Positions 4,789 to 40,404 of a DNA stretch of 40,456 nucleotides are shown one piece after another. Below the pieces are notes generated by a model. It was not told where the DNA came from and made no database searches. It worked only from the letters and a program-made list of their open reading frames with translations. The stretch is from a virus, in the IMG/VR virus record IMGVR_UViG_3300042922_001001, positions 1 through 40,456 of that record; one strand, given 5' to 3'. The position numbers and the translations under genes were made by a program. How positions within the stretch are numbered: the first letter of the stretch is position 1; every line of letters starts with the position of its first letter.

Positions 4789-5844
4789 TCAGACCGCGAC
4801 CCAGGTGGTGCCGTTCCAGATGCGGCGGCCCACGGCAGGACCGTTGAGGCCTGTGCGGACGGCTGCGGCGACGGCGGGACCGTACTTCGAAAGGTTCGCC
4901 CACCCTCCCGGGTGGAGGCTGTCGAACCCGTCGCCACCGGTCCAGGTGATACCGGACAGCAGCGTGATGCGGGACGGCTTCGTCGTCGCGGCGATCGCGT
5001 CGGTGAAGTCCGAGATGCTGTACGCCTGATTGAACGGGCGGATCACCATGATCCGCGCTTTCGTAGTCTGGGCGAGCAGGTTGTTCAGCAGCGTCGTCAG
5101 CCCGGCGGTGAACGTCGCGGCGGGGACGGCGTTGCCGGCGTCGTTCGTTCCGTGGTTGATGATGACGGCATCTGGGTCGACCGCGAAGCTGCGCGCCAGG
5201 CCAGCCGCTTGCAGGTTCCATGCGTCGTTCAGCGCGGGGACGTTGCCGCCGCCTGGCCACGTGATGCCCTGTCGAGCGAAGCCGATCACACCGACTTCGG
5301 CGCCGAGCAGCTCGCCCAGCAGGAACGCCCAGCCGAGCGTTCCGTCCGATCGCACCGTCGGGCTGCCCGACGCAGCGACCGTGCTGTCGCCCTCGGTGAT
5401 CGAGTCGCCGAGCACGGTCGCGGTCAGCGGGGCCTTCGTCGGGGCGACGAGCGTGGGCGTCCCGCCGGTGACGTCGATGCCGGTGAACTTCACCGCCGTC
5501 ACGTAGGGCGACGCCCACCTGTTCGATCCGTCGCTCGACGCGATCATCACGACCTCGAGCATGTGTTTCTGCCATGCGCTCGTGCGTGCTGGCAGCGGGA
5601 CCGTGACCGTCGCCGCGACGCTGACGACCTGCCAACCCCCGGTGCGGTCGATCCGGTACGCGATCTTCGTGGCATCCGCGATCATCGAGGACACGTCGAA
5701 GTTCAGCGTGATCCCGGTCGGTGAGCCGGTGATGAGCGTCTTGAAGTACGCACCCGAGTTGTTCGTGAGCGCCCGGGTCCCGTCGATGTGCCAGTTCCAC
5801 GGGCTGTAGACGATCGCCGCGTTGTTGTGCGCGAAGACGGTCAC
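4789..5844 (-). CDS. SGNH/GDSL-family hydrolase, tail-fibre-associated
   Basis: 351 aa. Residues 1-135 form a beta-rich N-terminal domain. An SGNH hydrolase domain follows, with GDS at 146-148 (nucleophile Ser148), a block II glycine near 188-193, HGTND at 231-235 (Asn234) and DSLH with Asp308 and His311. The last residues ([10 protein letters not shown]) resemble a short fibre-tip repeat. The family hydrolyses esters, often O-acetyl groups on polysaccharides, so removal of cell-surface decorations at adsorption is a reasonable inference. The GTG at 5844 is chosen because GGAGG lies 8 bases before it and it overlaps the preceding stop by 4 bases; a GTG at 5859 is possible. Confidence 0.85.
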
Positions 5845-7457
5845 GACGTCTGCCTCCACTCGTCACCCACGAGCGCATCCGTGGGGGTGCTCTGCCCGAC
5901 GTACGTCACGCACCCAGCCGGCGCTGCGGACGGCCGCGGCGGGTAGGTCCGCGCGCCCGTGACGCGCTTGAGGTAGTTCGCGTCCTCGGCGTGGAACAGC
6001 AGCAGCGTGTCATCGTCCGGCGTGGACGCGGCAGCCGGTGGGGTGAAGGTCCCGGAGTAGCGGTGGCTCTTCGACACTCGACACTCGTCGACCTTCGCGA
6101 ACCCGGCGATGCCGAACTGCGATGCGGTGAAACCGCCGAACACGAAGTCGTCGTTCCACGTGACCGTGGCGGCGCCGACCGTGGCCGCAATGGGCACCCC
6201 GTCCAGCCACCAGCCGACCAAGGTGTTCTTCCCGCCTGTGCGGGTGATCTGCACCGCGATGTGATGCCACGTTTGTGCGCTCACGGTCTCCGTGCTGTCG
6301 ACCTGCACGTTCGAGCTGTTCAGGGCCACGCGGAGGGTGCGAGGCTGCCCAGAGAACCCGAGGAACAGGTTCCCCAGCGACCACAGCACCCGCAATCCGG
6401 TGTCCGTACCCGCCTCGAGCCGCAGCCAGAGTTCAACGGTCAGGGAGAGAGCCTGCGCCTCGGGCACGGTGTCCACCGCCGTCAGCACGCCGTAGTTCAT
6501 TGCACCGGATCCGAACTTCGCCGGCGCTCCGTAGACGGGCGTGCCGCCCACGGATGCCGCCGCCGTGACGTGCGTGATCGGCACGGACTCCACGCACGTG
6601 AACATGAGCGACGTCTGCGCGACGCGCGTGTTCACCGCGGCCTCGACGGTAGTGCTTGCCGCGAGAGCATCGGTGGCTATCTGCTGCGCCGCCGTCCGCG
6701 CTGGACCTGTCGCAGTGAGAGCGTCCGCGTACGACTGTGTCGTCGGGCCGGGACCCTGCGCACCGGTCGCCCCGGCAGGCCCTTGCGGACCCGTGCTGCC
6801 CGTGTCGCCCTTCGGGCCGGTAGCGCCCGTGTCGCCCTTCACTCCCGCCGGCCCCTGCGGCCCCGCGGCACCCTGAGGTCCGGCTGGTCCCTGGATGCCC
6901 TGCGGCCCTGTCGCGCCGGTCGCTCCGGTGTCGCCCTTCGGTCCCTGTCGTCCCGGGGTGTCGACAGCCTCCCACGCCTCGTTACGAAGCGTCAGCGTCT
7001 CATCCCGAAGACCCTGCGTGTCCTCGCGTGCCTGGAACGTCTCCGCCCGCACCGTATCCCACGCCGCGACCACGTCCTCCGTCGGCTGCAACGTCGCCGG
7101 GTCCAGGTTCGGGAGGTCACCGAACGGCACGAAGCCGTCGGTTTGAACCGGGACGCCCTTCAACCATTCCTTCTTGTGCCGACCCGAGAGGATCGACACC
7201 TTCACCAACCAACCCCACGACCCATCCGTGGGCTCCAGGTTCGGCTGCACAGTCGGGACACCGTTGACCAGCTTCATCTCCACCTCAGGAGAGAACGTGA
7301 TCTCGCTCCCGTCCACGGTGGTGTAGCTGACGAGGTCAACCTTCCCACCCATGAGGGTGGCACCAGCTTGTACTGCCTGGAACTTGACCGTCGCGGTCAC
7401 GTGACGGAACTCCGCCTCGATCTCCCGAACCAACGACTCCAAACCGATACGGGTCAC
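5841..7457 (-). CDS. collagen-like tail fibre with C-terminal LamG-type domain
   Basis: 538 aa. Residues 1-165 form an N-terminal virion-attachment-like domain and a helical stretch. About 70 residues of Gly-X-Y collagen repeats follow (170-240, rich in GPQG and GDTG), as in trimeric phage fibres. The C-terminal 250 residues contain a concanavalin/LamG-like jelly roll (strand pattern [30 protein letters not shown]) that typically binds sugars. It is most likely the receptor-binding fibre. A GTG start at 7457 is used. It lies between the LamG-like protein and the SGNH hydrolase. Confidence 0.88.
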
Positions 7458-9684: not shown

Positions 9685-10157
9685 CAGGCCACCGCGCTTT
9701 CCGGCCCCCAAAGGACCAATGTGTCACCGGAGATGTCGAAGTAGGGGCGGTTGCCCCCGAGAACGGAGCCGGTGGGGTCGCCGAAGCCGGACAGGATCCA
9801 GGCGTTCGTGAACAGATCCATCTCGAGCAGGTCGTCGATCGCGCCACCGTTGCCCGGCCAGAGCTTGTACGGCCACTCCTGGTATCCGTACGACCACAAC
9901 TCGGGGCGCGGCTCGGCGGGGTTCTGCCGCCAGCGGAATACGGGGACGTAGAACGTGTCGGGTGCAGCCTCGAGACGAACCGTGAACAGGCCCTCGTTGA
10001 TGTTCACCCACTCCGCTTTGACTTCGACACCCACAAGGAGAGCGCCGGGGACGGAGCTCGGTCGCTGCGGGCGGAACCACAGCTCGGGTGAGAGCTCGAG
10101 GGGGAACACGACGCCCTCGTGGGTGAGAACGCTGCCTTCCACGGTCACGGTTGCCAT
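9684..10157 (-). CDS. hypothetical tail-associated protein, 157 aa
   Basis: Mostly beta-strand pattern, rich in Trp, Pro and Gly (RWRQNPAEPRPELW, PYKLWPGNGG), without membrane segments. It lies immediately upstream of the SGNH-like fibre protein with a 1-base stop/start overlap, which links it to the fibre assembly. The ATG is preceded by GAGGAAAA. It may be a connector or chaperone for the fibre. No named family. Confidence 0.65.
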   Translation of the reverse strand: MATVTVEGSVLTHEGVVFPLELSPELWFRPQRPSSVPGALLVGVEVKAEWVNINEGLFTVRLEAAPDTFYVPVFRWRQNPAEPRPELWSYGYQEWPYKLWPGNGGAIDDLLEMDLFTNAWILSGFGDPTGSVLGGNRPYFDISGDTLVLWGPESAVA

Positions 10158-10170
10158 GCGGGTTTTCCTC

Positions 10171-10263
10171 TCAGCCCTCTTCGGAGCGCGCAGGTGGGAT
10201 GTGGGAGAAGACGGCGGCGGCGGCCCACACGAGGAGGACCGCCGCCAGGAGGAGTCGGATCAC
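10171..10263 (-). CDS. 30-aa membrane peptide, holin-like
   Basis: A small ORF in the gap between the holin candidate and the 157-aa gene: GTG at 10263, TGA at 10171-10173. The product is one hydrophobic helix with a single Arg near the N-terminus and an acidic tail (IRLLLAAVLLVWAAAAVF, ending SEEG). The GTG overlaps the preceding TGA by 4 bases (GTGA), as several neighbours do, which favours real coupled translation. It could be a holin partner or lysis-timing peptide. Confidence 0.55.
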   Translation of the reverse strand: MIRLLLAAVLLVWAAAAVFSHIPPARSEEG

Positions 10264-10799
10264 GGCTGGTTGTGCGCGCCCGGATCGCGGAAGTTCGCCG
10301 GGTTGTGAGGGTCGACCGCGGCCGCGATCTCCGCGGGGGTCGCGAGCGCCGTGATATTCACGACGGTGCCGGCCGTGGCAGTGCCAGCGTCGATCGGGAC
10401 GCGAGTGGGGTCGGCGGGCAGAGTCGCGAGGATCAGTCGGACGAGCGAGCCGAGGGCGGCGATGAGAGCCGCCTGCAGGACGAAGGCCCAGTCGACGTCG
10501 GTGATGAGCGTCGCACCGACGAAACCGGCCGCGAGGGACTGGGCGAACGTCTTAACGACGCGCTCGACGGCGGCGAGCCACCACGGCAGGTTCACGCCCT
10601 CGACCTCGGGGAGGCCCGCGAGGCTGGTGACAATCGACGCGAGGAACGCGAGCGCCGAGGTGAGCAGCACCGTCACCCAGGGGATGTCGGCGAGGAGCGA
10701 CGCCCCGAGGTAAGGCACGGCGACGGCGAGGGCGGTGTACGCGGCGCGCTTGCCGGCGTCCGCCCACCAGTGCGGGTTGGTGAGGTTGGAGAGCTTCAC
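10260..10799 (-). CDS. holin candidate
   Basis: 179 aa. The N-terminus (KLSNLTNPHWWADAGKRAAYTALAVAVPYLG) and two hydrophobic helices at about 20-60, with more apolar stretches later, follow the pattern of holins from actinobacterial phages (inference from layout). The C-terminus is soluble. The GTG at 10799 overlaps the upstream stop by 4 bases and has AAAGGA before it. It is placed in a cluster of four small membrane genes just after the endolysin. Which of the four forms the lethal hole cannot be decided from sequence. Confidence 0.7.
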   Translation of the reverse strand: MKLSNLTNPHWWADAGKRAAYTALAVAVPYLGASLLADIPWVTVLLTSALAFLASIVTSLAGLPEVEGVNLPWWLAAVERVVKTFAQSLAAGFVGATLITDVDWAFVLQAALIAALGSLVRLILATLPADPTRVPIDAGTATAGTVVNITALATPAEIAAAVDPHNPANFRDPGAHNQP

Positions 10800-27347: not shown

Positions 27348-29036
27348 CTATCTGAGCTGTCGCGGCATCCGGCGCCGTGTGTTCGCGGTGACGCCCTTAC
27401 CGATCGCGTCGTTGCCGGCGGCGAAGGCGAACGCAGCCCCGTAGGTCGCGTCGATCTTGCCGTAGTCCTGGTTGTCGTCGGCCTTCTTCAGCACGTACCC
27501 GGCGCGGCGCGGGTCGCGACGCGCGTTGAGGAAGTGCCGGATCACCGCGGGGTCTCCGTCGAAGGTGACCTCGACCTGCCGGATCGACGAGTAGAGCTGC
27601 TCGAACGTCTCGCACGTGCGCGTGACGTCCTTCTGCTTCCATCGGATCGGCTCGGCCACGCTCATCTTCGCCTTGAGGCGCTTGTGGTGCGCGGCCTCCC
27701 ACGACTTCACCTCACCCGCCCACCCGGCGGACGGGTCGGCGTAAAACCCGACCACGTTGTAGTCGCGGAACGCCTTGGCGACGGCCTGCTCGATCTCGAG
27801 CTTCGGCGGCCGCCATCCTTCTCCGGCGGGCCCGTCGGGCTGCTCCCACATGCCGATGACGAAGAAGTGCCGCTGCGTCACGGAGTAGCCCATGAGCACG
27901 GTCGAGTCGGCGAGGTGCTTGTCTTTACGTCCCTCCGAGCCGTCGAAGCCCAGGGTGACCGGCTCGGACTTGCTGACGACCTTCCCGGCTCCCGCTTCCA
28001 CACACGCGCGAATCTCAGGGTCGGACACGTACGCGTCGCGCGCGGCGTCGATCTGGTTCAAGAAGTCCGCGCGCATCACGGCGGGGTCGTTCGCGGTGTC
28101 GAAGAAGTCCAGTGCGCCGCGGTGCACGTCGAACCAGCCCGGCGGGCATGGCGGGTCGTGCAGCAGGCATCCGTCGGGGTGCTTTGCGGAGTCGCCATAT
28201 GCGACGCGCAGACCGTGCACGAGCGAGTCCATGTCGTCGATCTGAGTTCTCGCCGGCGCGGGCCGGTGGTCGAAGTAGATCGAGCGGACGTCCTCGAGGT
28301 TCTTGTACTTGCCAGACTGGATGTCGTTCCAGAACTCGAACGACTGCTCCGCGACCGACCGCTCGCCGAGCGTGTACGCGTTCGGCGTCTCGATCGTGAC
28401 GCCGCCGAGCTTGGTCGCGTTGTTGCGGAGCGTCTGCGCGAGCTTCACTCCGCCATTGGAGCGCACCCACGTCTCGGTCTGGTCGAGCGATGCCGCGACC
28501 GCCTTGAATCCCTTGATCGTCGTCGCCGACGATGTGATGGGCACGATGCGGCCACGCTCGAGCGCGACGAAGGAGTCCATTGGCTCGAGGTTGAACTCGT
28601 CGGGCGCGGACCCCTGGCGGAGCATCTCGAGCAGCGGCTCCCATGTGTTTTTCGTCTGCTCCTCCGACACCGCGGCGATCGCGACGTACGGGGTGCGCAC
28701 CTTCGACCAGGGCTTACCCACCGGCTGCCCGTCGGCATCCCACCCGTCGGGCACGACGTCGAAGATGCCCTCGGCGATCATGATGCCGCCGACAAACGGC
28801 GACTTGCCCCACCCGCGCGGGCGTATGAGCGAGCCACGGTGGATCATCCGACGACCAGTGACGGGGTCGATGCGGTAGAGCTCGTTGAGGAACTCCTGCT
28901 GCTCGACCGTGAGCACGAACGGGTCGAAGATGTCGTCGTCGCCGGCGTCCGGGCGGCCGAGGTACGCGGCCATCTGGTCGGCGATTGACCAACCGAGGGT
29001 CGGGAAGTCGCCCTCAAATTGCGGCACCCACGGCAT
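27348..29036 (-). CDS. terminase large subunit
   Basis: 562 aa. ATPase motifs: Walker A RPRGWGKS at 72-79 and Walker B AASLDQTE (Asp185, catalytic Glu188). Nuclease domain: GFDGSEGRKD with Asp365 and a later acidic cluster including KIDATYGAAFAFA near 535. It cuts and pumps DNA into the prohead together with the portal. A 1-base overlap with the small subunit stop indicates coupling. With the HNH gene nearby, a cos-type mechanism is likely. Confidence 0.93.
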   Translation of the reverse strand: MPWVPQFEGDFPTLGWSIADQMAAYLGRPDAGDDDIFDPFVLTVEQQEFLNELYRIDPVTGRRMIHRGSLIRPRGWGKSPFVGGIMIAEGIFDVVPDGWDADGQPVGKPWSKVRTPYVAIAAVSEEQTKNTWEPLLEMLRQGSAPDEFNLEPMDSFVALERGRIVPITSSATTIKGFKAVAASLDQTETWVRSNGGVKLAQTLRNNATKLGGVTIETPNAYTLGERSVAEQSFEFWNDIQSGKYKNLEDVRSIYFDHRPAPARTQIDDMDSLVHGLRVAYGDSAKHPDGCLLHDPPCPPGWFDVHRGALDFFDTANDPAVMRADFLNQIDAARDAYVSDPEIRACVEAGAGKVVSKSEPVTLGFDGSEGRKDKHLADSTVLMGYSVTQRHFFVIGMWEQPDGPAGEGWRPPKLEIEQAVAKAFRDYNVVGFYADPSAGWAGEVKSWEAAHHKRLKAKMSVAEPIRWKQKDVTRTCETFEQLYSSIRQVEVTFDGDPAVIRHFLNARRDPRRAGYVLKKADDNQDYGKIDATYGAAFAFAAGNDAIGKGVTANTRRRMPRQLR

Positions 29037-29533
29037 CAGGCGGAGTCCTTCCGAGTGATCCCCCGCATCCGATCCCGCGACGACACGGCTCGTTCGACAC
29101 GCTCCGCAGACTCGACCTCCGCCGTCGTCGCGAGCGCGAACTGCATCCGCAACCGCGCCCGGTCCTCCGGGGTGAAGCCGTACTTCGCCTCACGCAGCCG
29201 CAGCTCCCCGGCGAGCTTCACGTCGCCCTTCCAGAACTGCGCATGGATCAGCGCCGTCTCAGCGAGGTACGCCCAGTCCATCTCCGTGAACTCCACGGCG
29301 AGGGGGTGACGGGTGAGCATGTCCCACCAGGCGCGTGTCTGCGCCGGCCACGTAAACCGCTTCTTGACGATCGCGGAGTTGCCGTCCTCGTCCTTGCCGA
29401 CCGCATCGAGGTAGAACGTCGGCAACTTCGGCTGGGTGGTCGGCTGAATCTCCAGCACACGCAGCTCGACGGCATCCTTGTTGCGGCGAGCGCGCTTACT
29501 GGCGTCCTTCGGAGCGAAACCGCGTCCAGCCAT
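29036..29533 (-). CDS. terminase small subunit
   Basis: 165 aa. Basic N-terminus (MAGRGFAPKDASKRARRNKD), a WPAQTRAWWDMLTRHPLAVEFTEMDW block and a helical region with LAETALIHAQFWKGDVKLAGELRLRE, typical of actinobacteriophage small terminases. It recognises the packaging site, likely in the 29534-29701 gap. The ATG at 29533 stands 7 bases after a CCCGAAACGGG repeat. Confidence 0.88.
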   Translation of the reverse strand: MAGRGFAPKDASKRARRNKDAVELRVLEIQPTTQPKLPTFYLDAVGKDEDGNSAIVKKRFTWPAQTRAWWDMLTRHPLAVEFTEMDWAYLAETALIHAQFWKGDVKLAGELRLREAKYGFTPEDRARLRMQFALATTAEVESAERVERAVSSRDRMRGITRKDSA

Positions 29534-29701: not shown

Positions 29702-30007
29702 TCAGCGCCTGCCTGGATGCCGTTCTCTCGGATGACGTGCTGACGGGTGTCGGGCCGCGTTGCGTGCGGCTACGGCCTCTCGCTGCGTCTCGCGGTTGTG
29801 GTGCCAGTGGCACAGGGTGCGGACGTCAGCGACTGTGGTGCGCTCCCCCGGTCTCCATTGGGTGAGGTGAGCGGCTTGCAGGTTGTCCGTCGCGGGGCAG
29901 CGTGTGCCATCGGACAGCGTCGCTACGCAGCGGTGACCGTCACGCTCGAGACAGGCGGAGCGTACGGCAGAGGGAACGTGGGTCGGTCGACTGTTCTCCC
30001 ACGGCAT
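29702..30007 (-). CDS. HNH endonuclease
   Basis: 101 aa. HNH domain with two structural Cys pairs (RDGHRCVATL and TRCPATD) and the active site in NLQAAHLTQWRPGE and TLCHWHHN (HNH histidines and Asn). The C-terminus is a His/Arg-rich tail. Adjacent to the terminases, as in HK97 gp74-type phages, where the HNH protein is needed with terminase for cos cleavage (established for that group). Starts at 30022 or 30019 are also possible. Confidence 0.85.
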   Translation of the reverse strand: MPWENSRPTHVPSAVRSACLERDGHRCVATLSDGTRCPATDNLQAAHLTQWRPGERTTVADVRTLCHWHHNRETQREAVAARNAARHPSARHPRERHPGRR

Positions 30008-30055
30008 CGCACACCCCATCACTTGAGCGAGCCGTTCGAGACTGAGGTGGCCCCC

Positions 30056-30877
30056 TTAGGAACCGCCCGCGCGGCGCGCCAACATGTCGATTCGTCGGGC
30101 ATCCGCAACGTACACGTCGTCAAGAACGAACCTTGCGACGGTGAGGGCGTCGTTGGCGTCCTCATTCGTGGGCACGTCCTCGATATCCCCGTGGGCCATA
30201 TCGTTCCCCAGTATTCGGAGAGCGTGTGCCATGTCCTTCGTGCCGTTGCGGATGTGGCCGTCAGTTTGAAGCTGGTTGATCTTAGCCACGAGACTCCCAG
30301 AGGTGACCCCGCGATCCTTCGCGGTTGCTTCGATGACGCTCCTGACCAACAACAGGACGGCGCGATACGCGCCGACGCTGTACGCGTCATGCGCTTCTTT
30401 CAAGTACCCGGCGACGCCTGCTGGGATGAACTCGACGTCAACGGGGCGCATGGAGGGCGGGGACCATGAGGTGATCGTCATCGCCTCCCCCTCGTCTGTG
30501 GCTCTGGACGCATCAAGCATCTGATTCGGCTTGAAAGTGATGCTCCTTGCAGCTTCCCGGTCGCCGACTGCCACGTTAAAACGTTGGCAAGCATCACACG
30601 TAGCTGCGATCTCGAACCTGTAATTGGCATAGCGATCAGCCACCAGCTCGGCAACCACGCGCCCTGTTCGGGCGGTGAAGTGCGTTTGATTGCCGCAGAA
30701 GGCGCAGGTTCCGGAGAGCATGAGGTCAATGTTGTCAGCGGCGACGGGCCTGGCGAAAGCCACGTTGGCGCGCCGGCCAGTCACGAACAGGTATCCGCAG
30801 CGGTCAAAGCCGGGCGCAGAAGGTGCTGCGCACGTGAGGCAGAGCGCCCGGTGTGTCACAGCGACCAGGCGCCCCAC
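30056..30877 (-). CDS. DUF4145 (HEPN-like) domain protein
   Basis: 273 aa. The N-terminal half has two zinc-like pairs: CLTC near residue 13 and CAFC near residue 58, with another Cys pair (CDAC) near 94. The C-terminal half (about 145-265) fits DUF4145: IPAGVAGYLKEAHDAYSVGAYRAVLLLVRSVIEATAKDRG, then LRILGNDMAHGD with the GN..AH signature. DUF4145 is a HEPN-related fold found with restriction and defence genes. It stands alone between a terminator and the packaging genes. GTG at 30859 is an alternative start. Function unproven; anti-phage defence or RNA binding are options. Confidence 0.8.
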   Translation of the reverse strand: MGRLVAVTHRALCLTCAAPSAPGFDRCGYLFVTGRRANVAFARPVAADNIDLMLSGTCAFCGNQTHFTARTGRVVAELVADRYANYRFEIAATCDACQRFNVAVGDREAARSITFKPNQMLDASRATDEGEAMTITSWSPPSMRPVDVEFIPAGVAGYLKEAHDAYSVGAYRAVLLLVRSVIEATAKDRGVTSGSLVAKINQLQTDGHIRNGTKDMAHALRILGNDMAHGDIEDVPTNEDANDALTVARFVLDDVYVADARRIDMLARRAGGS

Positions 30878-31182
30878 CCATCACGGGCAGCGTCCCGACA
30901 GCCCATCACCGCTCCGGAGTGTGCACACGATTCAGCAGGCGAGAAGGTGACGGCTTGAGCCCTGCTAGCCCCCGTATTCGGGCATCGTGGCAGGACCGTC
31001 ACCATCTGCGCGTGCCAGTGGCGGGGGTTGGTGAGCGTGTGGTGTCGGGACGAAGCATGGGAACGACAAAGCCCCGGCTACCTGGTGAGGGCCGGGGCTG
31101 TCGTTGCGTGGAAATGTTCCACTGATATCACCGTACCCTGGCCACATTGGCCACATTGGAACAGTTTTTCTTACATCGCCCG
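30878..31182. other. gene-free stretch with terminator and small palindromes
   Basis: About 305 bases without a supported gene. It holds the terminator at 31064-31104, a 15-base palindrome GTGGAAATGTTCCAC at about 31109-31123, and a tandem TGGCCACAT repeat near 31139-31156. These may be operators for the DUF4145 gene or the late region, but no clear promoter was found. Confidence 0.5.
31064..31104 (-). terminator. terminator of the early/replication operon
   Basis: A GC-rich stem (GCCCCGGC at 31071-31078 with 31091-31098, extended on both sides with an A bulge) and a 12-base loop. On the minus strand it is followed by TTTGTCGTT. It stands about 80 bases past the last early gene. Confidence 0.7.
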
Positions 31183-31476
31183 CTAGGCGTGTCGCCGAGA
31201 ACGCTGCTCAGCAACCGAACCGAACATCGACGGCTGCCGGCGCCCGAAAGTCGGGGCATCCCGGTAAGCGCTCTTGATCGCCTCGAGGCGGTACGCGTCC
31301 CCCATGTTCACGAGGATCGTTCCGTCATCGGCGCGCATCGTTCGAATCGCGTCAAGGTCCTCAGCTACCCAGCGGCGGAGCGTGCGCTTCGACCGGCGGA
31401 GTTCCTTCGCTGCTTCGGCATATGACGCCCAAGCCTTCATACGGCGTGTGGGTGCTTCAGTTTCGTTGACGGTCAA
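31183..31476 (-). CDS. small HTH (AlpA/MerR-like) protein
   Basis: 97 aa. HTH at about 18-38: YAEAAKELRRSKRTLRRWVAED, then a wing with DDGTILVNMGDAYRLEAIKSAY. The TTG start at 31476 overlaps the DnaB stop (TTGA) and has GGAGA six bases before it; an internal ATG (MKAWASY) is an alternative. It is the last gene of the replication operon, before the terminator. A regulator of the switch to late genes is conceivable but not shown. Confidence 0.6.
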   Translation of the reverse strand: MTVNETEAPTRRMKAWASYAEAAKELRRSKRTLRRWVAEDLDAIRTMRADDGTILVNMGDAYRLEAIKSAYRDAPTFGRRQPSMFGSVAEQRSRRHA

Positions 31477-32768
31477 CGCATCTCTCCGGTCTGTGAGTCG
31501 TGCGGGGGCGTCCCCCAGTTGTTGAATCCGGCCGTGCCGTGGCTGTTCCACTCCACCGCGCGTGAGAACTGGCCCTGCCACGCGAGGTTGACCTCACCCG
31601 TGTTCCCATGGCGGTTCTTCGCGACATCGATGATGAGTTGCTGATTCTCTCCTTCGCCCTCGCGGCGGAGCAGCAGGACCACATCGGCGTCCTGCTCGAT
31701 GGCGCCAGACTCGCGCAGGTCGGACAGCTTCGGCTTCGACAGCGTCGTCGCCTCGCTGTTGCGGTTGAGCTGTGACAGCGCGATGACGGGGATCTGCATG
31801 TCCTTCGCCATGAGCTTGAGACGGCGGGAGAAGTCGGAGACCTGGAGGTGACGGTCCATGCGCTCGCGGCTGGTCATCAGCTGCATGTAGTCGACGATCG
31901 CGCCGGCGAGGTCGCCCTTGCGAGACACCTGGCGGACGAACTGGCGCACGTCTGTCGCGGAGACCGACGAGCGGTCATCGATCGCGATGCGCAGCTCGTC
32001 GAGGGTCCCTCGCCCCGCGTTGAACTTGTCCCACTCGTGTACCTGCATCCGGGCGTCGCGGATGCGTCCGACGTTGATGAGCAGCCGTTCAGCGACGACT
32101 CGGGCGACGAGCTCGGTCTCGGTCATCTCGAGGCTTGAGAAGGCCACGTAGCCTGACGCGGCGAGAGTCGCCGCGATCTGGCCCGCGACGACGGTCTTGC
32201 CCTGACCTGGCCGCGCGGCGACGACGTAGACCGCGCCAGGTCGGAAGCCGCCGATGAGGCCGTTGAGCGAGTCCCACGGCGAGGGCACGAAGACACGGTC
32301 CTCCCTCATCTTCGACAGCAGCGCCGGGATGATGTCACGCACCAGACGGACGCCTTCCCCGCCGTCGCCGATGGCGTCCTCGAGCAGCTTGCGCGCGCGT
32401 TCCGCGACATCGACCGGGTCGTCAGCAGGCCCGATGTTCGCGAGGCCCGCGCCGGCTGCGGCGAGGCGACGTCGGAGGGAGTGCTGCTTGACCCGGTCGG
32501 CGTAGTAGCCCGCGGAGGCGACTGAGACGGCCGTGTCGGTGAGCTTGAAGATCACGTCGGCCCGGTCGGCGAAACGCTCAGCGAGCGTGAAAGCCTCGAC
32601 GGGCTTCTGCGCCGCGAACATCTCGGTCATGGCAGCGAACACGTCTCCGCGGAACGGTTCGTAGAAGTCGTCACCGGTGAGCCCGGCGAGCTCGTCGATG
32701 CAGTTGCCGTTGGAGATCAGGACGCAGGCGAGGACAGCCTCTTCGGCCTCCTGCACAAGGTCAACCAT
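31473..32768 (-). CDS. dnaB-like: replicative DNA helicase (DnaB family)
   Basis: 431 aa. N-terminal DnaB domain (QEAEEAVLACVLISNGNCID, then YYADRVKQHSLRR) and C-terminal RecA-type motor: Walker A ARPGQGKT at 185-192, SLEMTETELVARV, IVDYMQLM, LSQLNRNSE and SDLRESGAIEQDADVV. Complete motifs indicate an active hexameric helicase for phage replication. The ATG at 32768 has GGAGGG upstream and overlaps the loader gene by 8 bases. An upstream in-frame extension is a different-looking Ser/Thr/Arg stretch and is rejected. Confidence 0.93.
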   Translation of the reverse strand: MVDLVQEAEEAVLACVLISNGNCIDELAGLTGDDFYEPFRGDVFAAMTEMFAAQKPVEAFTLAERFADRADVIFKLTDTAVSVASAGYYADRVKQHSLRRRLAAAGAGLANIGPADDPVDVAERARKLLEDAIGDGGEGVRLVRDIIPALLSKMREDRVFVPSPWDSLNGLIGGFRPGAVYVVAARPGQGKTVVAGQIAATLAASGYVAFSSLEMTETELVARVVAERLLINVGRIRDARMQVHEWDKFNAGRGTLDELRIAIDDRSSVSATDVRQFVRQVSRKGDLAGAIVDYMQLMTSRERMDRHLQVSDFSRRLKLMAKDMQIPVIALSQLNRNSEATTLSKPKLSDLRESGAIEQDADVVLLLRREGEGENQQLIIDVAKNRHGNTGEVNLAWQGQFSRAVEWNSHGTAGFNNWGTPPHDSQTGEMR

Positions 32769-33081
32769 TTGCGCCCTCCTGCACGTCTTGCCATGCCTCG
32801 TACTGCTCTCGGGACATTCCGCGCGGGCCGCCGATGACGGGGCGTCCGTTGCGGAAGAGGAATCCGTCGCGGATATCGTCCGGCGCAGAGCTGCGCCGAA
32901 TGTCGGCGGGCCACAGACGGCGTGACTCCGTCTTGAAGTGCTCGGTGGCCGCGTCCATCGCCTGGTCGTAATCCACGTCACCAACGAGGGTGAACCACGC
33001 TTCGACTTCCAGGTCAGTGGGTTCCCCGCCCTGCACCGAGTGCACGAACACCAGCACCTTCGCCATCTCCGACTTCAACAT
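32761..33081 (-). CDS. helicase-loader-like protein (G39P-like)
   Basis: 106 aa. The N-terminal 60 residues match the shape of the phage helicase loader/inhibitor family (SPP1 G39P): KVLVFVHSVQGGEPTDLEVEAWFTLVGDVDYDQAMDAATEHF, then RRLWPADI. The C-terminus is polar. It lies directly before DnaB and after the initiator, as in SPP1 (gp38, gp39, gp40). ATG at 33081 has GGGAGAA before it. The gene overlaps the initiator's 3' end by 68 bases. Confidence 0.65.
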   Translation of the reverse strand: MLKSEMAKVLVFVHSVQGGEPTDLEVEAWFTLVGDVDYDQAMDAATEHFKTESRRLWPADIRRSSAPDDIRDGFLFRNGRPVIGGPRGMSREQYEAWQDVQEGANG

Positions 33082-33916
33082 CGTTCTTCTCCCGCTCTGC
33101 GTAGCGCTCAACGAGCGACATCGCGTTGTCTTGGCGCTGCTGCGCGTAGGTCTTCGTGCTGGCCGACGATGAGCCCCGTCTCGCTGCTAGTGCGAGCTGG
33201 TCGTATTTCTCGCGCAGCTTGGACATGCTCAGGATGTTTGCCCGCCAGAACTCGTCGTTCTGGCACCACCGGATCGCGTTGGCAACCTGCTCAGTCGTTT
33301 TACCGTCGCGGTCGAGCAGGAGCCGAGCGGCGTCACGGTTCTTCTTGGTGCGCCTAGGGGGTCGGCCTCCATTGCCAGCGATCTCGGCATCGAGAAGATC
33401 CAGGAGTTCGTCGATTTCGGGTCGAGGAGTCGCGTCAGCGACTTCCGACGAAGAAGACTGTTCCTCTGTTCCTCTGTTCCCCTGTTCCCCTGTTCCAGGC
33501 GCGAAGATTCGCGAATGCTCGCGAGAAGTCCCGCCACTTTCGCGAATGTCGGAATCTCCGTAGTTCAACGTGCCGTCTGGTCTGGGGTTTCTTCCTTTCT
33601 GTGGCTTGTCGACGCGCTGGACCTGTTCCCAGAACGACAGGAACAGCAGTTGCGTCCCGTCTGCCTCGTATCGCCACACCAAACCGGCTTGTTGCAGGCT
33701 TCCGAGCGCTTCGGAAACCCTCGCGAGGGTTCGCGAAGGTTCCCGGGCTAGGTCGCGCATGAAGAGGTCACCGCAGATCAGGGCGAGGTCGTCTCGTCCC
33801 ACGCCGTTGTCATCGACGTAGGACTCCAGCGCCTTGAGGACGAGGCGAGCATCCCAGTCGACTGAGGCCACGCGTTCTGAGCGCCAGAACTCGGGCTTGG
33901 TTCCACGGATCCGCAT
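33014..33916 (-). CDS. replication initiator / replisome organizer
   Basis: 300 aa. N-terminal winged-helix region (MRIRGTKPEFWRSERVASVD, then DDNGVGRDDLALICGDLF). A low-complexity linker (about 125-155) follows, and a C-terminal DnaD-like part ends in NDEFWRANILSMSKLREKYDQL. Such proteins open the origin and recruit helicase via a loader. The linker is encoded by short tandem repeats (33458-33497) and the gene carries five TCGCGA sites, a likely origin as in lambda O. The ATG overlaps the upstream 24-aa ORF stop (TGATG). Confidence 0.82.
   Translation of the reverse strand: MRIRGTKPEFWRSERVASVDWDARLVLKALESYVDDNGVGRDDLALICGDLFMRDLAREPSRTLARVSEALGSLQQAGLVWRYEADGTQLLFLSFWEQVQRVDKPQKGRNPRPDGTLNYGDSDIRESGGTSREHSRIFAPGTGEQGNRGTEEQSSSSEVADATPRPEIDELLDLLDAEIAGNGGRPPRRTKKNRDAARLLLDRDGKTTEQVANAIRWCQNDEFWRANILSMSKLREKYDQLALAARRGSSSASTKTYAQQRQDNAMSLVERYAEREKNDVEVGDGEGAGVRALGAGRGTH
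33458..33497. repeat. five tandem 8-bp units in the initiator gene
   Basis: CTGTTCCT, CTGTTCCT, CTGTTCCC, CTGTTCCC, CTGTTCCA run head to tail at 33458-33497. The 8-base unit is out of phase with codons, so three units make one eight-codon period in the linker of the protein. DNA-level function or slippage origin is possible. Confidence 0.75.
33509..33736. promoter_or_regulatory. candidate replication origin (TCGCGA cluster)
   Basis: TCGCGA occurs at 33509, 33519, 33540, 33721 and 33731. Two pairs are 10 bp apart, about one helical turn, and several are extended palindromes such as ATTCGCGAAT. They are inside the initiator gene and beside the tandem repeats. Initiator genes of many phages carry their own origin; binding is inferred. 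Confidence 0.5.
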
Positions 33917-37749: not shown

Positions 37750-38892
37750 ATGGCACGGCCGCGAACTCCGCTAAGTAGCTACGGCACGATTCACGCGGCA
37801 CTGGTCGAAACGGGCAAGTGGCGTGCCCGCACTCGCTATCGGTTCGATGACGGCAAGCTGAGGCAGGTAGAGCGCTTCGCGCCAAGCGAGGCGAAGGCGA
37901 AGGCGAAGCTGCGCGCAGCGCTCGTAGACATCCAGGCAACCACGGCAACCGACGTCAGGCGCGAGACCCGCCTCCGGGATCTCGGCGAGCGATTCCTCGC
38001 AGCCAAAGCCGGCCGCGCCCCCCGAACAGTGGAAACCTACGAGCGGGCCGTCAGAAAGATCATTGCGCCCCGAATCGGCGACCTCGCGGTTAGCGAAGCC
38101 ACCCCGGACAGGCTTCAGCGCTTCATCGATACGGTCAGAGAAGACGTGGGGGTTGGCACCGCGAAGACCGTCCGTTCCGTACTGTCCGGCATGCTCGGTC
38201 TCGCAACGAGGGCCGACGCCGTACGCGCTAACCCCGTCCGCGAACTCGCACCGCTCGAGCAGAAAGCAAAGGGCGCGAACCCCATCCCCCTGGACGAACT
38301 CGCGGGCATCCTCGCAAAACTCCGCAGTGACCAGCGAGCTCGTGATCTCGACCTTGTCGACATCGTCGAGTTCATCGCCGGCACCGGCGTTCGCATCGGG
38401 GAGGCGTGCGCGATCGCATGGGAAGACGTCGATCTTGAGGACGGGACGGTCAGTATTCGCGCGAACGCCGTGCGCGCGACGGGCCGCGGATTGATCCGTC
38501 AGACTCACACGAAGACCGAAGCGGGCACGCGGCGCATCCGTGTTCCCGGGAGCGTGCTCGGCATCCTCGGCGACCGCAGGCTCAGAGGAGGTCCTGATCG
38601 AGGGCTCGAGCTTGTTTTCCCTACTTCGATGGGTAATCTTCGGGATCCGCGAAACACCTCTCGGGACTGGGCCGAAGCTCGCGCCCGACTCGGCATCGGC
38701 GACTACTCGTTCCACAGCTTCCGAAAGACTGTCGCGACAGCGCTGGATCAGGCGGGACTCTCGCCCCGCGACATCGCGGAGTACCTCGGACACGCGGACC
38801 CTTCGCTGACGATGGGGACGTACATGTCCAAGACGGTCGGAGGCAGCAGAGCTGCTGATGCCCTAGACGATGTGCTGAGGATCCATCATTAG
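37750..38892 (+). CDS. int: tyrosine integrase
   Basis: 380 aa. N-terminal arm-binding part with YRFDDGKLRQVERF, a core-binding SAM-like domain (TRLRDLGERFLAAKAGRAPRTVETYER), then the catalytic domain: Arg215 (GTGVRIGEA), Lys255 (HTKTEAG), His322-x-x-Arg325 (HSFRKT), His348 (LGHAD) and Tyr358 (GTYMS). All six residues are present, so it should be active. GGAGGGCAGG precedes the ATG. The stop overlaps the PIN gene's stop on the other strand by two bases. Confidence 0.95.
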   Translation: MARPRTPLSSYGTIHAALVETGKWRARTRYRFDDGKLRQVERFAPSEAKAKAKLRAALVDIQATTATDVRRETRLRDLGERFLAAKAGRAPRTVETYERAVRKIIAPRIGDLAVSEATPDRLQRFIDTVREDVGVGTAKTVRSVLSGMLGLATRADAVRANPVRELAPLEQKAKGANPIPLDELAGILAKLRSDQRARDLDLVDIVEFIAGTGVRIGEACAIAWEDVDLEDGTVSIRANAVRATGRGLIRQTHTKTEAGTRRIRVPGSVLGILGDRRLRGGPDRGLELVFPTSMGNLRDPRNTSRDWAEARARLGIGDYSFHSFRKTVATALDQAGLSPRDIAEYLGHADPSLTMGTYMSKTVGGSRAADALDDVLRIHH

Positions 38893-40329: not shown

Positions 40330-40367
40330 GTAGCGGGAGCGGGGCTTGAACCCGCGACCTCACGATT
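40330..40367. repeat. attR core, 38-bp direct repeat
   Basis: Identical to 201-238. Here it joins the host-derived 5' part of the tRNA, so the phage supplies the 3' part of the restored gene. To the left it continues into phage DNA. Confidence 0.95.
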
Positions 40368-40404
40368 ATGAGTCGTGCGCTCTCACCAACTGAGCTACCC
40401 CGCC
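40331..40404 (-). tRNA. trnM: tRNA-Met (CAT), 3' part restored by the phage
   Basis: A 74-nt cloverleaf on the minus strand: acceptor GGCGGGG pairs with TCCCGCT (two G-T pairs), D arm GCTC/GAGC, anticodon stem ACGA/TCGT with loop CTCATAA, and T arm GCGGG-TTCAAGC-CCCGC. Anticodon CAT: elongator Met most likely; a lysidine-modified tRNA-Ile cannot be excluded. After A73 come CAT rather than CCA, so the end must be added by CCA transferase, unlike the uninterrupted host gene. Confidence 0.9.

Follow-up and report, generated by a model that had tools for sequence, protein, structure and literature searches.

RAZR, which we take to stand for ring-activated zinc-finger RNase, has RNase activity and is triggered by a ring protein. 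PDB entry 9y9c, titled 'RAZR:GP77 complex', is composed of predicted models fitted into density, and its chain OA is named 'DUF4145 domain-containing protein'. The RAZR chain of this entry matches the PADLOC model of the E. coli defence system PD-T7-4 (PDLC04109) with an E-value of 1.3e-90. According to an excerpt of PMC9519451, PD-T7-4 belongs to a group of 21 systems, each of which lowered the plaquing of the phage used for its selection. The same excerpt describes the PD-T7-4 gene as often overlapping an integrase gene, and reports a defence hotspot in P2-like prophages that is bounded by the genes for the replication endonuclease and the portal. The catalytic motif of active HEPN members is given as Rx4-6H in an excerpt of PMC3710099. 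Another DUF4145 gene, EXM25_05825 of M. abscessus GD01, is located in a candidate PICI. An excerpt of PMC10465359 reports transposon insertions upstream of this gene in phage-resistant mutants, and its authors plausibly credit the resistance to EXM25_05825 overexpression.

We analyzed a window, the whole stretch of 40,456 nucleotides of viral DNA that makes up IMG/VR record IMGVR_UViG_3300042922_001001. One of its genes encodes a protein with a four-cysteine zinc ribbon at the N terminus, joined to a domain of the HEPN RNase fold whose putative R/N/H site is invariant (Table 1). The protein is probably a prophage-borne anti-phage effector, distantly related to PD-T7-4 and RAZR. Among the papers listed in a literature search, we found none that tested this branch for RNase activity, a trigger or protection.

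The first-pass annotation assigned DUF4145 to an open reading frame at 30056-30877 of the minus strand. The frame, with a GTG start at 30877, and the domain are present (PF13643, E=3.8e-15 with the annotated start and 2.4e-15 with the corrected one; 56.8 bits against a curated cut-off of 23.1), but the start is misplaced. The start codon of the real gene is the internal Met53 of the annotated frame, an ATG at 30721. An ATG is aligned with Met53 in all ten close homologs (L002, L006, L007, L008, L009, L010, L011, L013, L027 and L028), and an in-frame stop precedes it by 12-81 nt in nine of them and by 297 nt in L010. The homologous frames of L001-L005 likewise have an ATG at the Met53 position and in-frame stops just upstream. 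These start positions rule out the reading of the whole frame from the GTG. The first cysteine pair, residues 13/16 of the annotated frame, therefore lies outside the gene, and the three pairs counted previously are reduced to two CxxC pairs, C6/C9 and C42/C45, which form one zinc ribbon. The earlier description of the gene as standing alone holds, as it is a single gene.

Both CxxC pairs are invariant in an alignment of 28 members (A3, which omits L058, L066, L067, L073, L027, L030, L031 and L033), as are R127, E131, R169, G172, N173, M175, A176, H177 and G178. Residues K135, H166, D174 and D179 are conserved at 90% or more, and the upstream Ex3[KR] motif of HEPN members is formed by the invariant E131 and the nearly invariant K135. 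All 28 members match PF13643 at E ≤ 1. The spacing of seven residues between R169 and H177 is outside the range given in the PMC3710099 excerpt, yet it is identical to that of RAZR. The least conserved part of the protein is formed by residues 19-38 between the cysteine pairs, which have a mean majority fraction of 0.46 in seven close members, versus 0.97 around the active-site motif; this variability would suit a recognition surface. The homolog in L032 (about 9736-10358, minus strand) has a frameshift at the active-site motif and is therefore apparently broken in that genome.

Structure prediction had been proposed as a check, with the HEPN active-site geometry in view. In the AF2 model (mean pLDDT 91.8, pTM 0.74), the N-terminal half is β-rich and the C-terminal half helical, and the helical half matches HEPN proteins. 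The top entries in VIA-align are HEPN, with 2hsb at Z 13.1 (rmsd 3.2, 114 aligned residues), 6m6w at Z 11.7 and 3o10 at Z 11.5, on a scale where helical bundles may reach Z ~13 from common arrangement alone. Further entries named HEPN follow at Z 10-12, and the top matches are all located within residues 96-217. The RAZR chain of 9y9c matches the model weakly (Z 4.5, rmsd 8.7, residues 1-206). Foldseek returned zero matches to the PDB at E ≤ 0.001 and one match to BFVD, A0A482IIS2 (4.6e-11). Single-sequence search of the PDB and search of NCBIfam gave nothing relevant to the window protein.

The profile phrog_1305 matches the window protein over its full length (E=3.4e-28, profile positions 15-214 of 226) and the RAZR chain over nearly the same span (1.2e-28, positions 17-215). 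In both proteins, a CxxC...CxxC zinc ribbon is followed by a DUF4145 HEPN domain. The motif from R to H reads RILGNDMAH in the window branch and RIVGNQAVH in RAZR, with the same R-x7-H spacing and GN in the middle. When the 28 members were compared, profile against profile, with seven sequences (RAZR, five RAZR homologs at 34-45% identity, and phage Cartapus), the match reached 99.3% and E=9e-21 over 195 columns that include the zinc ribbon; with RAZR alone, it reached 94.4% and covered only the HEPN half. Both systems are formed by a single gene and have mobile elements as carriers. The two differ in that their identity is low, RAZR has Q in place of the invariant E131, and its motif continues as H-P-G rather than H-G-D. 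The window branch also differs by a leaderless-type promoter box and a mostly terminase-side slot, unlike the frequent overlap with integrase genes described for PD-T7-4 in the excerpt of PMC9519451. A PDB search with the portal protein, aimed at the nature of GP77, gave nothing relevant.

The PADLOC model of PD-T7-4 matched neither the window protein at E ≤ 1, nor a six-frame translation of the window, nor the close homologs in records G006-G009. We therefore do not file the window protein as PD-T7-4, but only as a distant relative. The model reached nine of the ten proteins tested at E ≤ 1, the missed one being the window protein. E-values were 5e-12 for L116, 5e-11 for L072, 5e-7 for L033, 1e-6 for L117 and L056, 2e-3 for L050 and a weak 0.013 for L074; L072, L116, L033 and L056 are distant relatives. 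IMG/VR record G006 contains both a homolog with 71% identity to the window protein and a clear PD-T7-4 gene (9.4e-38), which are located between DnaB and TerS. The PD-T7-4 gene is positioned 1.7 kb from the homolog, on the other strand and on the TerS side. In L011, a 553-residue protein encoded between DnaB and the DUF4145 gene (5334-6995, plus strand) matches phrog_2666, labelled terminase large subunit (6e-22), and the record has another TerL adjoining TerS.

The location of the gene between the replication and packaging blocks, as stated in the first-pass annotation, is borne out by the DnaB-like and RepA-like genes on one side and the HNH, TerS and TerL genes on the other. The early terminator noted before the gene corresponds to a strong hairpin at about 31104-31062 (-29.4 kcal/mol, z -4.66 for the fold of 31050-31115) followed by a T-rich tail. 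The terminator pattern scan did not list this hairpin, probably because of its long loop. The scan gave one terminator-like site, 30374-30358, which is inside the gene and within chance expectation. Because of the integrase and tRNA-Met genes, the phage is taken as temperate. The position of the integrase near one end and of the tRNA-Met gene at the end of the record suggests a tRNA attachment site. The best PHROG (226) of TerS, a gene that matches PF25673, is labelled 'minor tail protein', probably a mislabel. Five homologs are found in contigs of Microbacterium (two) and Leucobacter (three), which places the probable host of the window in that family.

Table 1. Positions of features in the window and, where a locus is named, in homologous loci.
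Feature	Position	Strand	Evidence
DUF4145 gene, start corrected: 221-aa zinc-ribbon and HEPN protein of the phrog_1305 family	30056..30721	-	homolog starts and upstream stops; PF13643; phrog_1305
β-rich zinc-ribbon half, residues 1-60; C6, C9, C42, C45 invariant; residues 19-38 highly variable	30542..30721	-	alignment A3; AF2 strands; conservation in 7 close members
HEPN domain, residues 96-213; R127-x3-E131-x3-K135, R169-x2-G172-N173-x3-H177	30083..30436	-	Pfam; AF2 helices; HEPN structures
-10-like hexamer AACATT, -12..-7 from ATG (predicted leaderless promoter)	30728..30733	-	NANNNT in 11/11 close members; 26/31 wider
Terminator-like hairpin closing the early (replication) operon, upstream of the gene	31062..31104	-	RNA fold; T-rich tail
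HNH endonuclease gene, immediately downstream	29702..30022	-	phrog_333, E=5.3e-14
TerS, terminase small subunit	29036..29533	-	PF25673, E=1.6e-27
TerL, terminase large subunit	27348..29036	-	phrog_9, E=2e-40
DnaB-like helicase, replication side of the slot	31473..32984	-	PF03796, E=1.5e-71
RepA-like initiator	33014..33916		replication gene
Integrase, marks phage as temperate	37750..38892	+	phrog_1, E=4.8e-61
tRNA-Met gene, end of record	40330..40404		tRNA search
Second DUF4145 gene, clear PD-T7-4 member, between the window gene's homolog and TerS	L011:12344-13252 (IMGVR_UViG_3300048858_000111)	-	9.4e-38
phrog_1467 genes	L013:5726-6682, L006:8925-9710, L028:8848-9510, L009:7353-7964, L029:6552-7451		profile match

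The slot is mostly terminase-side. Of 32 loci, a number that excludes the window, 24 have a terminase gene within about 5 kb of the DUF4145 gene. In 18 of these the terminase gene is downstream and has the same orientation, and in six it is on the other strand. In the remaining eight loci, some of which are cut by contig ends, it was not found. As the terminase profile was partly built from the same loci, we also counted the 23 of 32 loci outside the profile, and 15 of these have a terminase. Loci L038-L048 and L108-L110 are outside all counts. In L007 and L030, the DUF4145 gene adjoins tail genes instead, and in the P2-like phage Cartapus it is beside the portal gene, adjoining the site of the hotspot described for P2. 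Cartapus and the P2 prophage hotspot, with tin, old and other genes, thereby resemble the window in having a cargo gene near portal or terminase genes of a temperate phage. In the P2 case, however, the phages and hosts are unrelated to those of the window, and the only other defence gene that we saw in the actinobacterial slot is the PD-T7-4 gene of G006.

The gene is accessory and mobile, and has been exchanged between unrelated phages. In the Microbacterium family, a search of 398 genomes with alignment A1 gave matches in 11 at E ≤ 0.001, including four close ones with E-values below 1e-80, and phrog_1305 as a whole occurs in 27 of 299 genomes. Alignment A3 has no match in 32 IMG/VR records that share the TerL of the window at 39-98% identity, several of which are fragments. 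As the nearest positive control, without which an empty answer shows nothing, alignment A1 recovered the known matches in nine of nine records. The gene is thus sporadic among close phage relatives, as a moron would be. The first-pass annotation held that the constant presence, at this place in lytic phages, of close homologs required for growth would speak against its reading; the distribution seen here is not of that kind. DNA similarity to 16 TerL relatives (blastn) begins at 30006-30016, just inside the HNH gene and 40-50 nt beyond the stop codon of the DUF4145 gene, and one of the 16, L086, is uninformative in this respect since its match starts at the contig end. Therefore, the DNA shared with those relatives includes neither the gene nor its upstream region. 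The window protein has no match in phage records at E ≤ 1e-3, and at E ≤ 10 it has weak matches in 13 records, the best at 2e-3. DNA of positions 20001-40456 matched 53 records, and the 20 of these that were listed share about 2%, near the replication initiator.

Among ten phages with both genes, the DUF4145 proteins are more alike than the TerL proteins in 44 of 45 pairs, with mean identities of 53% and 20%; the TerL identities are lowered by L009, whose TerL best matches another TerL PHROG than most. The two identities have no rank correlation (Spearman 0.008). Co-evolution with the phage's own packaging module was not seen by this measure, so there is no sign of a gene tuned to the packaging proteins of its own phage, which we counted against the defence reading. 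Purifying selection is strong among seven close members, with a mean dN of 0.27 over 21 pairs and a mean dS of about 2.3 in 12 of these pairs, dS being undefined in the other nine.

The hexamer NANNNT is positioned exactly at -12 to -7 from the ATG in the window and all ten close homologs. A at -11 and T at -7 are present in all 11 sequences, G at -14 in nine and G at -6 in ten, while the 60-nt upstream stretches otherwise average 33% identity. The full TANNNT is found in only three of the 11, and the only Shine-Dalgarno-like match is AGGA in L013, which overlaps the box. Of 31 starts in a wider set, 26 are preceded by NANNNT with a spacer of 6 or 7 nt, versus 444 of 5989 ATGs (7.4%) in the same loci, a comparison that ignores kinship; for the 20 starts outside the close 11, the start codon nearest the first CxxC was picked by eye, with the upstream bases in view for most. 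The set of 31 omits duplicates and near-copies (L057, L060, L067, L073), further copies of contigs already included, L065 (which lacks upstream DNA), L058 and L066 (ambiguous start), L032 (frameshifted), and L034 and L035 (weak matches). Two of the five starts without the box have a Shine-Dalgarno-like stretch. A box 6 or 7 nt before the start predicts a transcript beginning at or next to the start codon, and this sequence pattern implies that the gene has a predicted leaderless promoter of its own. A sigma-70 scan did not find a full promoter for the gene. In L006, a tRNA-like stretch with a GGTTCGAACCCC loop (about 9920-9985) is located directly upstream of the promoter box, and ARAGORN did not call it on the same contig (L003).

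Between the anti-phage gene and the regulator that the first-pass annotation had offered, we favor the former. The PHROG family and architecture are shared with PD-T7-4 and RAZR, a close homolog is 1.7 kb from a PD-T7-4 gene, and the gene is sporadic, exchanged and apparently separately promoted. It is unlikely that the protein is instead a phage regulator, a zinc-ribbon nucleic-acid binder acting at the early/late switch or in lysogeny, with the HEPN fold serving for RNA binding only, as the PMC3710099 excerpt proposes for part of the MtlR family. Such a role would agree with the PHROGs label of phrog_1305, 'DNA binding protein', which counts against defence, and with the position between early and late genes. 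It would also agree with four Streptococcus phage records in which a related gene has the same orientation as a regulatory gene, the repressor in three of them and an XRE-family regulator in the other. However, the gene is unmatched in the 32 TerL relatives, and so is not needed for the switch there; it is opposite to the terminase in six of the 24 loci that have one; its putative catalytic R/N/H set is invariant; and PD-T7-4, the member of the family whose role is known, acts in defence. The position upstream of a co-oriented terminase in 18 of 32 loci could indicate a lytic-cycle or counter-defence protein expressed with late genes, for example one that shuts off host RNA or blocks host defence. 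We consider this quite unlikely, given the conserved -10-like box of the gene itself, the opposite orientation in six loci and the sporadic occurrence (0 of 32 TerL relatives, 11 of 398 genomes).

A toxin of a toxin-antitoxin or prophage-maintenance module is very unlikely, even though HEPN toxins of MNT-HEPN pairs (6m6w, 7bxo, 7ae6) are among the nearest folds. These toxins and RnlA share the HEPN fold with the window protein (6m6w Z 11.7; 6y2p Z 6.9), but the matches extend over residues 93-206 at most and thus leave out the zinc-ribbon half. They also work with an antitoxin partner, whereas no constant partner gene was seen in the annotated loci of the window branch. Genes of phrog_1467, whose function is unassigned in PHROGs, are upstream of the DUF4145 gene in five loci, which we counted against the defence reading; they are adjacent to it only in L006 and L028, the latter by a weak match (4e-4). 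No scanned protein of the window matches phrog_1467, and the window gene is alone between the terminator-like hairpin and the HNH gene. That the gene is a decaying passenger without present function would be in line with the frameshifted relative in L032, but it is highly improbable when close members are under strong purifying selection and the promoter-like box is kept in 26 of 31 starts.

We infer that the protein is best explained as an abortive-infection RNase with a RAZR-like mechanism, belonging to a divergent actinobacterial branch, and that it probably protects its host from rival viruses. Low-level expression in the lysogen would supply the protein as an inactive HEPN dimer. On superinfection, the zinc-ribbon half would be bound by a product of the incoming phage, most likely one that forms rings, such as portal; we propose a ring protein as the trigger because of the analogy with RAZR. 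RNA cleavage at the HEPN site would follow, and the infected cell would be stopped before the rival phage is released; an RNase step at this site is more probable than not. The M. abscessus GD01 gene EXM25_05825, as described in the PMC10465359 excerpt, is similar in being a DUF4145 gene in an actinobacterial mobile element.

It is also conceivable, albeit rather unlikely, that temperate phages of actinobacteria have a P2-like defence hotspot where their replication and packaging genes meet, with RAZR-family sensors as recurring cargo. The sensors would be leaderless so that the guard stays translatable when an invader disturbs initiation, residues 19-38 would set which phage rings are recognized, and each carrier would keep its own rings invisible. 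The analysis provides the correct start and likely promoter of a gene that is missed by PADLOC-DB 2.0.0. It brings together a phage-defence protein and a prophage gene whose PHROGs family has no label beyond 'DNA binding protein', and identifies a branch that has moved among phages whose terminases are unrelated, in most cases at a slot near terminase. It also raises the question of how a temperate phage that encodes a sensor of phage rings would keep its own rings from setting it off.
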